Below are positions 44,109 through 63,638 of a DNA stretch of 64,000 nt, piece by piece. Source of the stretch: Chloroflexota bacterium (GTDB lineage Bacteria; Chloroflexota; Anaerolineae; UBA1429). The stretch spans positions 25,175 through 89,174 of the forward strand of contig DUUT01000013.1 in assembly GCA_012841405.1 (NCBI GenBank), written 5' to 3'. The position numbers and the translations under genes are program-made. The notes beneath the pieces were generated by a model. The model saw nothing but the letters and a program-made list of their open reading frames with translations, did no database searches and was not told where the DNA came from. Position 1 is the first letter of the stretch. Each line of letters begins with the position of its first letter.

Positions 44109-44348
44109 AGTGCTGTCAGTGGAATCGTGGGTACCGTCGCCGCGTGACGGTGAGGGTGTCCCGCGACAAGTGAACGGCCCAGATCAAGACCGCCCGCCCA
44201 ACCCCATCGCATCGCTCCCCTTCATCCACGACTCGGCCACATCGCTCTCCACGCGCTCTGCACAATGCCATATTCCATGTGCCCGGTCTTGCGCTGGCGG
44301 CTCAGCCAACGTCTGGTTCGGTGTATCAATAAGGCAAGTGGGGAGCAC

Positions 44349-45245
44349 ATGGACTCCAACCTGGTTCCAGCACAGAGCGCACACGTAGCGTTCGAGATGC
44401 GTATGGCGATCGGCCCGGCCGTCATCGGCGTTCGCAGCAGCGATACCGCCTTTGCCGAGATGGTAGAAACCTGGTGCCGGCCATTCTGCACCGATCGCGA
44501 GCCCGAATACATCCTGGACGTCGCCTTGCGCGATGGGCGCACCGCCGCCGAGATCCAGCAGGTGATGCCCGAGGTGCGCGTGCAGGCTCGCGATGGGTGG
44601 TTCACATCGGACCCTCCGCTCTGGGAGGCGGAGTATCGCCCTGCCGAGCGCTATCTGCGCTTCCAAGCCGAGCGCGAGCTCTTCCATCCCGCCATCCAAC
44701 CCCGCTACCTGAACATCCTCCTCTCTTCGCTCTACAACTCGTACTGTGAGGACCGGCAGTGCTCCCCGCGCGAGGCGTACCTCGTCCACGGCTGTGGAGT
44801 AGCCCTCGGCGGCGACGGCTATCTCTTTACGGGGCCATCCGGCGCGGGCAAGACGACTGTGGCCAGCCTGTCACCCCACCACACCGTGCTGAACGATGAG
44901 GTGGTCCTCATGCGGCTGGCGGATGACGGCGTCTCGATGGCGGGCACGCCCCTGCTGGGGGGCATCAACCGCCGGTGCAACGTCACCGTACCGCTCAAGG
45001 CCATCCTGCTGCTGCGCCACAGCCGCGAACCGGCCCTCGGCGAGGTTGAGTCGAAAGAAGCCTACACGCGATTCCTCGCCCAGATCTTTGATCTGGCGCC
45101 AGTGCTGTCCTCCGGCGCCGAGCGCATTCGCTGGCTGTCGGAGCGCATGGATTTTGCGCGCGGAGTGCTCGAGCGGCTGCCGTGCTACGAGCTCGCCTTC
45201 CGGCCGGACGATTCGTTCTGGCCGCTTATCAAAGATCTGGCGTAG
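44349..45245 (+). CDS. HPr kinase/phosphatase-like P-loop kinase (HprK-related)
   Basis: YLVHGCGVALGGDGYLFTGPSGAGKTTVASLSPHHTVLNDEVVLMRL; adjacent to radical SAM and PqqD genes. Confidence 0.85.
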   Translation: MDSNLVPAQSAHVAFEMRMAIGPAVIGVRSSDTAFAEMVETWCRPFCTDREPEYILDVALRDGRTAAEIQQVMPEVRVQARDGWFTSDPPLWEAEYRPAERYLRFQAERELFHPAIQPRYLNILLSSLYNSYCEDRQCSPREAYLVHGCGVALGGDGYLFTGPSGAGKTTVASLSPHHTVLNDEVVLMRLADDGVSMAGTPLLGGINRRCNVTVPLKAILLLRHSREPALGEVESKEAYTRFLAQIFDLAPVLSSGAERIRWLSERMDFARGVLERLPCYELAFRPDDSFWPLIKDLA

Positions 45246-45248
45246 GGA

Positions 45249-46337
45249 ATGATGGACGATCGCACGCACCATACGGTGATCCAAGAGTGGGATGGCGAAG
45301 CGCCCCTCCTCCACGAGGTGATGCGCAGGGCAGGGGAGCGCCATATCCCCTGGCAGGCTGCCATCGAGGTGACCTATCGCTGCAATCTCGCCTGCCGTCA
45401 CTGCTACGTCGATGATGGGCTCAAGGGCACAGAACGGCCCGAGCTGTCCGTCGCCGAGTGGCAGCGGATTCTCGACGCGTTGGCTGCCAGTGGGACGCTC
45501 CACCTCCTCATCACCGGGGGCGAGCCGCTGGTGCGCGCGGACCTGTTGGACATCCTGGAGGCGGCCACCGAGCGCGGGTTCTTTGTCGCGCTGCTGACGA
45601 ACGGCACCCTGGTGTCACCCGAGTGGGTAGCTCAGCTACGCGCCCTGCGCCCGCACTTTGTGGGCACCAGCGTCTATGGCGCCTCCGCCGAAAGCCACGA
45701 CAGGATCACCCAGCGGCCGGGATCCTTCCGGCGCACCGTGGACGCCATTCGGTCGCTGGTGAACGCTGGGCTGACGGTCGTCGTGCAGGCGACGCTGATG
45801 GCCGACAACGTCGGCGAGATCGCCGCCATGCGCGCACTCGTCGCGGACCTGGGCGCGACATTCTCCCTCGGCTTTAGTCTGGTGCCGACCAAGGGATGCG
45901 GTCTGGGGCCGCAGGCACTGGAGGCACCTGTTGGAGAGATGCTGGAGCACCTCTGGGCAGAGCCGGCGGTGCTCGTCGAGCCGCATCAGGCCGAGCCGCG
46001 CGTCTGCCAGGCGGGCCGGGGCATCTGCTCCGTCTCGCCCAATGGCGACCTCTATCCCTGCCTCCTCATGCCACTCCGACTCGGCAGTCTACGGGAACGG
46101 TCGTTTGACGAGATCTGGTGGCAGCAGCCGCCCAAGGCGTTGGTGCACCTCCGCAGCCTCACCCCAGCCGATTGGGTCGCGTGCGAGGGGTGCCCCGATG
46201 CCGCGTTCTGTTTTCGCTGTCCGGGAGCCGCCCTCGGTGAGACGGGCTCTTTGACGGAGAGGCCACCCAGCTCGTGTCGCGCTGCCGCGATTCGGGCGCG
46301 GCTCTATCACACGAGGAAAGGAGGGAGCCGACTATGA
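45249..46337 (+). CDS. Radical SAM/SPASM peptide maturase-like protein
   Basis: EVTYRCNLACRHCYVDDG (CxxxCxxC); C-term VCQAGRGICSVSPNGDLYPC...CEGCPDAAFCFRCPGA...C SPASM-type cysteines. Confidence 0.93.
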   Translation: MMDDRTHHTVIQEWDGEAPLLHEVMRRAGERHIPWQAAIEVTYRCNLACRHCYVDDGLKGTERPELSVAEWQRILDALAASGTLHLLITGGEPLVRADLLDILEAATERGFFVALLTNGTLVSPEWVAQLRALRPHFVGTSVYGASAESHDRITQRPGSFRRTVDAIRSLVNAGLTVVVQATLMADNVGEIAAMRALVADLGATFSLGFSLVPTKGCGLGPQALEAPVGEMLEHLWAEPAVLVEPHQAEPRVCQAGRGICSVSPNGDLYPCLLMPLRLGSLRERSFDEIWWQQPPKALVHLRSLTPADWVACEGCPDAAFCFRCPGAALGETGSLTERPPSSCRAAAIRARLYHTRKGGSRL

Positions 46338-46462
46338 AAAAGAGATACCTCAAGCCCACCATCATCATTCAAAAGATCGAACTCGCCACGTTGGCCGGCC
46401 GCTACCAGAGTTTCTCACCGCTGCCCATCCTCAACCCACTGTTTAGGTTGTGCTGTAGCTAG
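46334..46462 (+). CDS. Candidate RiPP precursor peptide (42 aa)
   Basis: MKKRYLKPTIIIQKIELATLAGRYQSFSPLPILNPLFRLCCS; ATG overlaps the TGA of the radical SAM gene (ATGA); YxxP-type leader motif; no acidic residue after E16. Confidence 0.75.
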   Translation: MKKRYLKPTIIIQKIELATLAGRYQSFSPLPILNPLFRLCCS

Positions 46463-46618
46463 CTCGGTAACTGAGGGCGTCCGGTTGGTGCCCTAGGGAA
46501 CCAATCGGCGCCCTGCGGCACCCACCGCCCGATTGGGGGGCCGTCCGTTGGCCCGTCTCACCGAGGGCGGCTCCGGGATCTCATGGCGGCCGCACCGTCC
46601 ATCTCGAGAGGTGACACG

Positions 46619-47215
46619 ATGGCCCACGGCGCGAGTGAACCCACGAGAACGCCGCGAACCCCGGGTGAATCGCCCGTGGGCCCGGTGCCCGATGCCGTGC
46701 TCGAAGAGCTCTCCGAAGAGCTGCTCGCCCGCGGCGGCCGTGTGTGGCGCAGTGTGACATCCGACAGCATGGCGCCCCTCCTGCGGGCGGGCGACCGCAT
46801 CCTCGTCGAGCCATGCGCCGATCGCATCCGCTGGGGTGACGTGATTGTCTTTCGCTCCCCCGCCGGACCGACCGTGCACCGCGTGCTCGGCATCCGCCGC
46901 GATACTGTGCCGCCCCAGATAATCGAAAAGGGGGACGCCAACCCCTTTGCGGGAAGTATCGCCCTGACAGCGGTGAGTGGTCGCGTGTGTCGGCGCGATC
47001 GTGAGGGCCGCTCGTTGGATCTGAACCATGGCAGGGGGCGCGTCATCCAGCTCATTCTGGCGACGCTGTCATTGCTGGCGTTGGGCGGGCTGCTCGCTGG
47101 TCAGGCAGTGCGACGTCTGTTGCACATCGAGCGCCCCACGGGCATCGCCACGCGCATTGCCGGGCTTCTCCGCGCCCTGTCTGAAGGTGTAGCCCGTGTG
47201 CTCGGAACGGATTAG
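46619..47215 (+). CDS. S26 (signal peptidase I/SipW-like) peptidase
   Basis: SVTSDSMAPLLRAGDRILVEP, WGDVIVFRSPAGPTVHRVLGIRRD, C-terminal TM; RBS gagagg 7 nt upstream. Confidence 0.85.
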   Translation: MAHGASEPTRTPRTPGESPVGPVPDAVLEELSEELLARGGRVWRSVTSDSMAPLLRAGDRILVEPCADRIRWGDVIVFRSPAGPTVHRVLGIRRDTVPPQIIEKGDANPFAGSIALTAVSGRVCRRDREGRSLDLNHGRGRVIQLILATLSLLALGGLLAGQAVRRLLHIERPTGIATRIAGLLRALSEGVARVLGTD

Positions 47216-47255
47216 CCGGCGCTGGTGCCGGGCAACGCCTGGCTCTCAGGGCCGC

Positions 47256-47274
47256 GCCTTGCGCAGGGCAAGGC
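47256..47274 (+). terminator. GC hairpin between peptidase and PqqD genes
   Basis: gccttgc-gcagg-gcaaggc perfect 7-bp stem; no U-tract. Confidence 0.35.
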
Positions 47275-47321
47275 CGCCTGCGCGGGCTGCCGGGAGCTGG
47301 ACCTAGGCCGCCCCATCGGAC

Positions 47322-47382
47322 GCCCCCCGCGCATCATACCTGTCCCGTTGCTGGCATGATGCGTCAACCATCATCAGCGCGG
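47322..47382 (+). promoter_or_regulatory. Copy 1 of a conserved intergenic element with CGCATCAT/ATGATGCG inverted repeat
   Basis: cgcatcat(18 nt)atgatgcg-tcaac-catcat; TGG-CATGAT extended -10-like; similar to 62723-62785. Confidence 0.5.
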
Positions 47383-47421
47383 GGCGCGTCTTGAGGCGCC
47401 AACAGGAGGATGAAGGGAAAC

Positions 47422-47706
47422 ATGGAAAAGCGCTACCTGAAGCGCAGTGAGGACTATGTGTGGCGCGACATCGGCGGAGAGATCGTGATCCTCAACGCGG
47501 AGGGCACCCAGGTCTGCCTACTGAATGAGACGGCCGCGACCATCTGGGCTCTCTGCGACGGCGAGCGCGACGTGTGCGCCATTGCCCAGGCCATCGCGAC
47601 GCAGTACGACGTATCGCACGACGAGGCGACGACCGACGTGCACGAGTTCGCCGGACAGCTCGTAGCCTCGGGCTTCGCCGAATGGGTGGGCGCCACCGAG
47701 GTGTAG
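47422..47706 (+). CDS. PqqD-family protein (RRE-like peptide-binding domain)
   Basis: YVWRDIGGEIVILNAEGTQVCLLNETAATIWALCDGERDVCAIAQAIATQYDV; start at MEKRYLK. Confidence 0.9.
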   Translation: MEKRYLKRSEDYVWRDIGGEIVILNAEGTQVCLLNETAATIWALCDGERDVCAIAQAIATQYDVSHDEATTDVHEFAGQLVASGFAEWVGATEV

Positions 47707-47737
47707 CGTTGGTTCCGGGTGACGAAAGGATGCGGGA

Positions 47738-48754
47738 GTGGGCGTCATCGAGACCCAGGCCCTCACCAAGGCCTTTTCGAGACGAACCGATTACCGCGCA
47801 CTGTGGCGCCTCGGCAGGCGCCACGACCTCGTGGCCGTCGACGCCGTCGACTTGGTGGTGGAAGAGGGAGAGCTGTTCGGCCTGCTGGGGCCGAATGGCG
47901 CGGGCAAGACCACCCTCACCAAGCTGCTGTGTACCCTCATCCTGCCGACGTCGGGGAGGGCCACCGTTTGCGGCCACGACGTGGTGGCCGATGCCGCTGA
48001 TGTGCGGCGCGAGGTGGGGCTGGTCGATTGCCAGGATCGCAGTTTCTTTTGGCGGCTGTCGGGTTGGCAGAACCTCCTCTTCTTTGCCGCGCTGGTGGGC
48101 CTGCATGGGGCCCAGGCGCGGCGTCGCATCGCGGAACTCGTGGACCTCGTCGGCCTGGAGGGCGACATCGACCGCCGGTTCATGACCTACTCCAGCGGCA
48201 TGCGGCAACGGCTGGCCATCGCCCGCGGGCTGCTGTCCATGCCCCTCGTCGTGTTCATGGACGAGCCGACGCGCAGCCTTGATCCGGTCACCGCGCGTGA
48301 CCTGCGCCGCTTTATCCGCGAGATACTGGTCGATGCCCTGGGGCGTACGGTGGTGCTCGTGACCCATCGCCTGGAAGAGGCCGAGGAGCTCTGTGATCGC
48401 GTGGCCATCATGAACCACGGGCGCGTGCTGGCCTGTTCGCCGGCCGAGGACATCAAGCGGCGCATCTCGGCGCGCCTGCGCTACACCCTGCGCGTGCGGC
48501 GCCTCGCGCCAGAGGTCCTCGCGCCCCTGCGAGGCGCGCCGGGGGTGGCCGATCTGTGCATGGCCGATGCCAACTCGCACGGCGTCGAGTTGCAGCTCCT
48601 CCTGGCCGATGAGGATACCTGCCTGCCGGGCCTCATCCGCGAGATCGTGACACTGGGCGGCGATATCGTGCATTGCCAGTCGCAGGGGCTGTCCTTGGAG
48701 GAGGCATTCGTGCAAATGGTGCAGGGGTCGGATGATGGTATTGGCACTACATAG
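47738..48754 (+). CDS. ABC transporter ATP-binding protein
   Basis: GLLGPNGAGKTTLTKLLCTLI; YSSGMRQRLAIARGLLSMPLVVFMDEPTRSLDP. Confidence 0.93.
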   Translation: MGVIETQALTKAFSRRTDYRALWRLGRRHDLVAVDAVDLVVEEGELFGLLGPNGAGKTTLTKLLCTLILPTSGRATVCGHDVVADAADVRREVGLVDCQDRSFFWRLSGWQNLLFFAALVGLHGAQARRRIAELVDLVGLEGDIDRRFMTYSSGMRQRLAIARGLLSMPLVVFMDEPTRSLDPVTARDLRRFIREILVDALGRTVVLVTHRLEEAEELCDRVAIMNHGRVLACSPAEDIKRRISARLRYTLRVRRLAPEVLAPLRGAPGVADLCMADANSHGVELQLLLADEDTCLPGLIREIVTLGGDIVHCQSQGLSLEEAFVQMVQGSDDGIGTT

Positions 48755-49550
48755 GGCGTGGGCATTCGTTCGGCGCGACGCGCAGATCCAGGCGAGCTAC
48801 CGCCTCGATTTCGTCATGCGCATCGGTGGCATTGTGCTGTCCGTCGCGGTGTTCTACTTTATCTCTGACATGCTCGGCACGGTGGTGAACCCCTACCTGC
48901 AGGACTATCGCGCCGACTATTTCCACTTTGCCCTGATGGGCGTGGCCTTTTACCCCCTGATCGACGCCAGCATCGCCAGTCTGTCGCGCATCATCCAGGA
49001 GTACCAGTCGGACGGCACGCTGGAGGTGCTGTTCCTCAGCCCGATGCCAATCCTCCTGTCGCTGCTCCTATCCAACCTGTGGACCTACCTCTGGACGCTG
49101 GCCCAATCGCTCCTGTACCTCCTGTCAGGTGTGCTGCTCTTTGGGGCGACGCTGAACTGGAGCAACCTACTGAATGCCCTGCTCGTCATCGCCATGGCCG
49201 TCCTCGCCAACGCGGGGTTGGGGCTCATCAATGCCAGCTTTGTGCTCGTGACCAAGCGCTCCAGCCCCATAGCGGCCCTCCTCAGCCTGGTGACAGGACT
49301 GCTCGCGGGGGTCTACTACCCGGTCGAGGTGCTTCCCGGCTGGCTGCGGTCGCTGAGCCTCCTCCTGCCGGCCACCCACGCGCTCAACGCCCTCCGCACG
49401 AGCCTGCTCGGGGGCGCCACGTGGCAGGCCATCCTCCCTGAGCTCATCGTCATGGCCCTCTTTGCCATCCTGCTCCTGCCGCTGGGCCTGTTTTCATTCC
49501 GCCTAGCAGTGCGCTGGGCCAAGATCGATGGCAGCCTGACCCAGTACTGA
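48732..49550 (+). CDS. ABC-2 type transporter permease
   Basis: Six-TM pattern; ALHRAWAFVRRDAQIQASYRLDFVMRIGG...; overlaps ATPase gene. Confidence 0.88.
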   Translation: MMVLALHRAWAFVRRDAQIQASYRLDFVMRIGGIVLSVAVFYFISDMLGTVVNPYLQDYRADYFHFALMGVAFYPLIDASIASLSRIIQEYQSDGTLEVLFLSPMPILLSLLLSNLWTYLWTLAQSLLYLLSGVLLFGATLNWSNLLNALLVIAMAVLANAGLGLINASFVLVTKRSSPIAALLSLVTGLLAGVYYPVEVLPGWLRSLSLLLPATHALNALRTSLLGGATWQAILPELIVMALFAILLLPLGLFSFRLAVRWAKIDGSLTQY

Positions 49551-49562
49551 GAAAGGTACACC

Positions 49563-50927
49563 GTGCGACCGAACCCCACAGCGACTCCCATACGAGCATC
49601 GAGCGACAACGATCCCACCGATCGCCACGATCGTCTCGATCGCGTGCCGGTCTCGGACGCCCTCCGCGGAGTGCTCGTCGCCCTGGCCACGGGCGACATC
49701 GACCGCCCCGTGCCCTGGGGGCAAATCACGGCAGACGAGCTCGTCGCCGCCCTGGACCGCGAGCGCCTCATCGGCCTGGCCCACCGCTACGTGCAAGAAT
49801 CACCCCACCGTGACGACGTGCCCGCCCTCGAGGCCGAGCGTGTGCGCGAGGCGCATCTGGTGACGGCGATTCGCCTCGCGGTGACCTACCAGATGATGGG
49901 GCATGTCCTGCGGCACCTGGCCAAGGCGGCCCCGCCCTATCTCGTTGCCAAGGGCCCAGCCGTGGCACAGCTCCTCTACCCCAACCCCTGGCTCCGCACG
50001 TTCAGCGACGTGGATGTGATCGTCCACCAAAGCGATTGGCGAGCCATGGACGAGGTAGTGATCGGCATGGGCTTTGTTCCCGAGCGCGACGCCCGCGTAC
50101 CGCTACCGCCCCTGACCGGCGCCGACGCCCTCTATGAACGCACCTACCGCCACCCGTCGGGATTTACGCTGGACGTCCACTACGATGACCTGCTGAATTG
50201 TGGGCTGGCCGCGCGTGACGCCAACGGGTTCTGGCGTCGCGCGCAGCAGATCGACATCGAGGGGGTTCGCGTCCGCACATTGGCCCCGGCGGATCAGTTC
50301 GTGCACCTCTGCGCCCACGCCCATTACCACGGCTATACGCGCCTCGTGTGGCTCTCTGACCTCGCCTTCCTGCTGCGCGACCATGGGGATACGGTGGATT
50401 GGGATCAGGTAGTTCGCACCGTCCAGCTCGAGGAGGCGCAGGTCCCCGTCTACTATACCGCTCGGCTCCTCGAGGCGCTGCTTGGCGTCACCGTCCCCCC
50501 GCGCGTCCTTGCGCAGGTGCGCCCGGATCGCATCCGCCGCGCCATCCACGAGCTGCTCCTGCCCGAGCGCGATCTCGTGGCGCTACGACCCATGTGGCGC
50601 CCCGATCTGAGCTTTTACTTTCTGCCGCTGCTCAAGCGACTGGTACCGGATATGCTGGTCATGGGCCGCCGTCGCGACAAGCTCGCCTATTTGGCGCGAC
50701 TACTCGTTCCGCCACCACACTGGCTGAGACGCTACTACAGCCTGTCTCCATCCTCTCCCATCTGGCCCCATTATGTCCTCCATCCCCTCAAACTGCTGTA
50801 CCACTATGCGACGGAGCTGATAACCGCGGCGCGCCTGCGACGCCTGCGACTCGACGAGGACGACCTCCCCTACCTCCGGCGAACCTCGGTGGACAACGGC
50901 GCTCTCTTTCCCCAGTCGAGCCGCTAA
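49563..50927 (+). CDS. Nucleotidyltransferase-like protein (NTP_transf_5-type)
   Basis: YLVAKGPAVAQLLYPNPWLRTFSDVDVIVHQSDW; HLCAHAHYHGYTRLVWLSDLAFLLRDH. Confidence 0.82.
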   Translation: MRPNPTATPIRASSDNDPTDRHDRLDRVPVSDALRGVLVALATGDIDRPVPWGQITADELVAALDRERLIGLAHRYVQESPHRDDVPALEAERVREAHLVTAIRLAVTYQMMGHVLRHLAKAAPPYLVAKGPAVAQLLYPNPWLRTFSDVDVIVHQSDWRAMDEVVIGMGFVPERDARVPLPPLTGADALYERTYRHPSGFTLDVHYDDLLNCGLAARDANGFWRRAQQIDIEGVRVRTLAPADQFVHLCAHAHYHGYTRLVWLSDLAFLLRDHGDTVDWDQVVRTVQLEEAQVPVYYTARLLEALLGVTVPPRVLAQVRPDRIRRAIHELLLPERDLVALRPMWRPDLSFYFLPLLKRLVPDMLVMGRRRDKLAYLARLLVPPPHWLRRYYSLSPSSPIWPHYVLHPLKLLYHYATELITAARLRRLRLDEDDLPYLRRTSVDNGALFPQSSR

Positions 50928-58786: not shown

Positions 58787-58834
58787 GCGAGCAGCCATGG
58801 AGGGCGTGGTACCACGCCCTCCATGGCTGCTCGC
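58787..58834. terminator. Perfect 48-bp palindrome, probable bidirectional terminator
   Basis: gcgagcagccatggagggcgtggt|accacgccctccatggctgctcgc, 24-bp perfect arms. Confidence 0.65.
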
Positions 58835-62519: not shown

Positions 62520-62722
62520 TAGTTCCCGACGGCCCACTCCACAGTCGTCACAGCGCCCCCTCTCCCCCCTGTATCTTGTGTGCAAGGACCCGGGAGGGGA
62601 GCCCTCGCACGCGGGGGAGAGCTTGCCTTGGTCGTGACGACGTGCGATCTTTGAGTTCCTCTGGCAACAGGCCGCGAGAGCGTAGCCGGGCGGGACATGG
62701 CACCCCTCCACCGGTGCCCTCG

Positions 62723-62785
62723 GACGCCACCCCGAGCATCACACTCTCCCGTTGCGGGGATAATGCGTCAAGCATCATGAGTCGT
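62723..62785 (+). promoter_or_regulatory. Copy 2 of the conserved intergenic element
   Basis: cggacgccaccccgagcatcacactctcccgttgcggggataatgcgtcaagcatcatgagtcg aligns with copy 1 at 47322-47382. Confidence 0.5.
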
Positions 62786-62897: not shown

Positions 62898-62926
62898 TTG
62901 ACGGCCGTTTCCACAGCTTCTATACT
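62898..62926 (+). promoter_or_regulatory. Strong sigma-70-like promoter
   Basis: TTGACG-17 nt-TATACT, 41 nt upstream of the 62967 ATG. Confidence 0.75.
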
Positions 62927-62966: not shown

Positions 62967-63638
62967 ATGTCGTCAGGCTCATATCCCTTGACCGCCAGCG
63001 AGCTCGTCCTCCTCAAGGGCGAACACTTTGCCAAGCGTGCACCAAGGGGCAACGTCGACCTCCTGCACACCGGTGCCAAGGTCTCAGCCGCCGAGCTCGG
63101 GCAACGCATGGTGGCGGTGGCCTTTCTCGCGTGTGAGCGCGTGGGCACCGTGCGCCTCGAGGTGCGGCCCAAGCGCGCGTTCTTTGGACTGCGCACCGTT
63201 GATACGCTCTACGCTGAACCCGGGGATGGCAGCTACGCCTGGCCCACACCCAGTATCGAAGGATCGCTGCGCTCCCTAGCTGTCGAGTGGGCCGAAGACA
63301 AGGCCCAGAACGAGATCGCCAACATCGTGCACACGCTGCTCCGTGAGGACAGCCCCGATCCCTGGCACGCGCTCATCGAACGGGTCAAGAGCGATCTAGC
63401 GGCCCGGGGCCTGCTCCGGACGGCAGAGCAGCGCACCCTCCGGGTGTTCGATCCGATCCGCTACCATCTTCCCGAGACGACTGCCAGTCTGGCCGCCCGT
63501 CAGTCTGAGACTTCGCTGCAAGAGATCCTCGATGAGTGTCAGCGCACACGGCCACCGGTTTGGAAGTTGCTTCTCACCGGACTCGACAAAGCCGCCAGCC
63601 AACGCACCGAACGCTTGACCAACACTGACACCGACTGA
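62967..63638 (+). CDS. Hypothetical protein
   Basis: Continuous coding frame MSSGSYPLTASELVLLKGEHF... downstream of a good promoter; family not recognised with confidence. Confidence 0.7.
   Translation: MSSGSYPLTASELVLLKGEHFAKRAPRGNVDLLHTGAKVSAAELGQRMVAVAFLACERVGTVRLEVRPKRAFFGLRTVDTLYAEPGDGSYAWPTPSIEGSLRSLAVEWAEDKAQNEIANIVHTLLREDSPDPWHALIERVKSDLAARGLLRTAEQRTLRVFDPIRYHLPETTASLAARQSETSLQEILDECQRTRPPVWKLLLTGLDKAASQRTERLTNTDTD

Follow-up and report, generated by a model that had tools for sequence, protein, structure and literature searches.

Two intergenic sites in the window, the 64,000-nucleotide stretch of DNA analysed here (C73:25175-89174, from a 4.0-Mb assembly of 238 contigs rated 96% complete), carry a similar short sequence, and we asked whether it marks a regulatory site common to both loci or is a small repeat dispersed in the genome. 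A sequence-only reading had put forward a shared regulator, with a dispersed repeat as the alternative, and had described an element of approximately 62 bp common to 47.3 kb and 62.7 kb. Comparison of the whole window with itself confirmed that the match is real: positions 47313-47377 (copy 1) aligned with 62717-62781 (copy 2) at 83% identity over 66 columns with two 1-nt gaps, giving a bit score of 63.5 and an E value of 5.9e-10. Because only one off-diagonal DNA match in the window ranks above this pair, the similarity goes beyond chance. The strongest such self-match is a perfect 48-bp palindrome at 58787-58834, between two predicted genes. The extent of the element was another matter, as homology continues to the left into palindromic modules and, with these included, covers 47269-47377 and about 62640-62781, that is, more than 62 bp at each site. 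A match to the module consensus at 47269-47374 reached an E value of 1e-25 in the window, with a query consensus derived from these same copies. The parts of the two sites are as follows.

47269-47312, plus strand: modules B-C to the left of copy 1, the palindrome GCCGCCTGCGCGGGC followed by CCGGGAGCTGG... (within the consensus match 47269-47374)
47313-47377, plus strand: shared block (module D), copy 1, forming the right end of the repeat (aligned to 62717-62781; model R1)
62653-62694, plus strand: fragment of the left-end module U beside copy 2 (GTTCCTCTGGCAACAGGCCGC...; matched by contig C73:87827-87868, 88%, E 3e-8)
62691-62716, plus strand: module C beside copy 2, hairpin GGCACCCCTCCACCGGTGCC (consensus match 62691-62778, 92%)
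62717-62781, plus strand: shared block (module D), copy 2 (self-comparison, model R1)

We then determined how widely the block is distributed. Searches of the genome by sequence, by pattern and with a 63-position model returned four full copies (two in C73, one each in C192 and C91), together with partial copies in C121, C32 and, weakly, C75, a result that supports the dispersed-repeat alternative. The full copies are 78-88% identical in pairwise comparisons (12-22% apart). All four are intergenic and without coding capacity, and each points towards a downstream gene. On the 3' side they end abruptly at CATCAT, and the adjoining flanks are barely more similar to one another than random stretches. 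In 40 relatives, 14 of them from the same family, the shared block was found at background level only. When 85,000 species genomes were scanned with the pattern, the one exact match was in Qipengyuania and by our estimate is within chance expectation; the pattern had no match in viral contigs.

To the left of the reported block, which we call module D, the repeat is a mosaic, in which we distinguish modules A (CGCCGCAGGCTCAAGCCTGGCGC), B (CCAAGCCCGCCTGCGCGGGCTG) and C (GGGAGCTGGCNCCCCTCCACCGGTGCGCTCGGACGCC). The A-B-C-D consensus has at least 42 matches in its own genome and 0 in the 14 family relatives; module B occurs in dozens of genome copies, and the flanks of the C91 copy, used as a query in the same genome, hit 41 places, mostly with the left flank alone. 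Combinations of modules vary (A-B alone, A-B-C, C-D and B-C-D), and C121, C232 and C79 each carry just the left third of the block, joined to palindromic modules. Since module use varies and the left third recurs alone, the 62-bp element is not the unit of homology. Modules A and B behave as high-copy extragenic palindromes of the REP/BIME kind (20-40 bp), whereas block D does not. Further to the left lies module U, of 194 bp, with 24 matches in its own genome and just four marginal matches, of 27-49 bp, in relatives. The left edges of U (loci L010, L137, L119, L114 and L116) tend to start within GGGTTGA, the loop of a further abundant palindrome (CCGCGGGTTGAA...CCCGGCGC), which suggests that one repeat was inserted in another.

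Under the regulatory hypothesis, a shared regulator would act on the CATCAT dyads, and an in-block promoter with the -10 box GATAAT or CATGAT would co-regulate the downstream genes. Three features are relevant here.

47330-47363, no strand assigned: perfect 8-bp inverted repeat CGCATCAT (47330-47337) / ATGATGCG (47356-47363), with an 18-nt spacer, limited to copy 1
47422-47706, plus strand: PqqD-domain gene downstream of copy 1, a neighbour outside the element (PF05402, E 2e-17, scanned from 47410)
62898-62926, plus strand: canonical sigma-70-like promoter TTGACG-17-TATACT from the promoter scan, in the interval from copy 2 to the following gene, outside the element

The individual motifs were found as they had been described: the dyad with its 18-nt spacing, a third CATCAT in copy 1 (at 47369), and the -10-like boxes CATGAT (47355) and GATAAT (62759), which occupy the same alignment columns. 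The box reads GATAAT in three full copies and CATGAT in the fourth, and each of the four full copies points at a gene that begins 33 to about 185 bp further downstream (in the case of copy 2 probably with the ATG at 62967); both observations favour a regulatory role. However, a common orientation would arise by chance with a probability of about 1/8, because one full copy sits between divergent genes. Only copy 1 has a perfect dyad (8/8 complementary positions), the other full copies scoring 5/8, 5/8 and 3/8; perfect 8-bp inverted repeats with 3-30 nt spacers are in any case common in this DNA, numbering 83 in 64 kb. No -35 partner was found for the -10-like box and no sigma-70-like promoter around copy 1, while the better promoter of copy 2 lies outside the block. 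Conservation among the four full copies is spread evenly along the block, and the homology continues into palindromes that also stand alone, which again speaks against an operator. Finally, the downstream genes are unrelated: they encode the PqqD protein, a weak GPP34-like protein, an unknown and an aldo/keto reductase, with no evident common function. With the dyad perfect in one copy, no promoter near copy 1 and unrelated genes downstream, the proposed shared regulator is not upheld, and we regard it as very unlikely. A variant strikes us as similarly improbable, namely that block D, as a MITE terminus with a promoter or binding site, serves as a mobile regulatory end and has brought several unrelated genes, the PqqD-ABC-nucleotidyltransferase operon among them, into a common response.

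The genes around copy 1 form a run from 44265 to 50927 that comprises an unassigned 326-aa protein, a radical-SAM-like protein (read by eye), an S24/S26 peptidase, PqqD, an ABC ATPase, a permease-like protein and NTP_transf_5, and that looks like a peptide-modification cluster. An in-frame ATG is also present at 47410, upstream of the PqqD-gene start at 47422. The run contains a 28-bp inverted repeat, 96% identical, whose arms lie within the end of the radical-SAM-like gene (46220-46247) and before the signal-peptidase-like gene (46551-46578).

We also considered whether the shared block could be a conserved RNA element such as a leader, an attenuator or an sRNA. Hairpins are possible in the copies, and RNAalifold gave a consensus of 10 pairs. 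Against this, the fold differs from copy to copy and is not clearly better than that of shuffled sequences (z -0.3 to -1.6), no covarying pair was seen, and no Rfam family matched at the gathering score, so that we give an RNA element hardly any credence. The Rfam search, run at gathering thresholds over the whole window and permissively over 47216-47450, yielded nothing convincing; for the block, the nearest candidate was the Pseudomonas sRNA P37, with 21 bits against a cut-off of 50.

More informative were the two ends of the repeat. The pattern GAT..TTGACG.ATT......GCAAC.GG occurs at equal spacing in the left edge of U and in the reverse complement of D. When individual copies of U were compared without gaps with inverted copies of D, the best pairs agreed at 23/34 positions and the mean over all pairs was 19.4; neither value was reached in any of 300 column shuffles. 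An earlier gapped test of a single D consensus against a single U consensus had given no signal (143/1000 shuffles), and the support for inverted ends therefore depends on the copy-by-copy comparison. Scanning the genome with the end pattern gave 11 places, against 1 for a reversed control. These were mostly the known U and D ends, plus one more in C85, and because these very copies had served to write the pattern, the scan supports the ends rather than proving them independently. Copy 2 (about 62640-62781, ~145 bp) is a compact element with both ends and an internal deletion; its own ends agree less well, at 16/34 positions. GTCGT stands on both sides of copy 2, a match to be read against the 32% of random pairs that share a 5-mer. 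Both ends were found together in copy 2 alone, no intact copy of full length came to light, and joining U, A-C and D gives an estimate of near 340 bp for the full-length element.

Taken together, these data point to a small MITE-type repeat that is dispersed and non-coding and of which the block is the right-hand terminus; among the searched genomes it was found in this one only. We assign this reading a probability of roughly 0.65. The two element ends are the imperfect inverted repeats described above, and the interior is a string of GC-rich palindromes that are also dispersed in the genome as REP-like mosaics. Copies probably spread in the past, most likely by means of a transposase acting in trans that recognised both ends; we infer both the mobility and the helper enzyme. 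They would then have settled in intergenic spacers and later decayed by substitution and internal deletion, any effects on neighbouring genes being incidental. The copies are old and diverged, and present mobility is unproven. Reading of the predicted proteins revealed no transposase in the surroundings (about 1.5 kb) of the end copies that were examined.

The main competitor, which we consider possible and clearly less probable, places the block in a REP/BIME-type mosaic upheld by recombination or by a RAYT-like enzyme, with the inverted similarity of U and D reflecting oppositely oriented REP doublets. The many short intergenic palindromic modules in variable combinations fit such a mosaic, and inverted REP pairs (REPINs) are known (PMC3116915). 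Nevertheless, Y1_Tnp/RAYT (PF01797) had no match in this genome, rated 96% complete, whereas it was present in 5/14 control genomes, and neither the U end nor the D end is a compact palindrome with a GTAG or CGTC tag, as is usual in REP families (PMC3733652).

The MITE-type interpretation accounts for a striking match between spacers without recourse to a regulon, and it defines a MITE-like family that is restricted to a lineage and nested with REP-like palindromes in a genome in which the usual REP transposase was not found. Its value lies in annotation and in avoiding false operator calls; it holds no surprise, this kind of element being already known. Another repeat, about 124 bp long (GTGTGGAAAAAGGGCC...GCGTTTTCAAAACACGG) and with TIR-like ends, is dispersed in the same genome, at L143:1598-1721, L136:1312-1435, L135:279-402, L142:448-559 and others. 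About a dozen copies, 80-97% identical, were present among the loci fetched, and this repeat is another MITE-like family.

Both of the known classes invoked here have been described in some detail. REPs are palindromes of 20-40 bp, which in many cases carry a GTAG or CGTC tag and have links to RAYTs (PMC3733652), and REPINs are inverted REP doublets (PMC3116915). The interior modules of the present element resemble REP, BIME and REPIN sequences in being short GC-rich palindromes that are extragenic, occur in many copies and enter variable combinations. Unlike in those systems, no IS200/RAYT gene (PF01797) was found in the genome, and the reported block, present in just four full copies, does not have the form of a compact palindrome. 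MITEs are non-coding sequences of 70-300 bp with terminal inverted repeats of 15-30 bp, and the bacterial examples listed include NEMIS, RUP, ERIC/YPAL and Nezha (PMC3733652). The present element differs from these in its interior, which is a palindrome mosaic, and in being without a demonstrated target-site duplication, parent insertion sequence or intact full-length copy. It resembles bacterial MITEs in being short, non-coding and intergenic, with several diverged copies per genome, in its inverted ends of about 30 bp, and in a size of the order of 70-300 bp.
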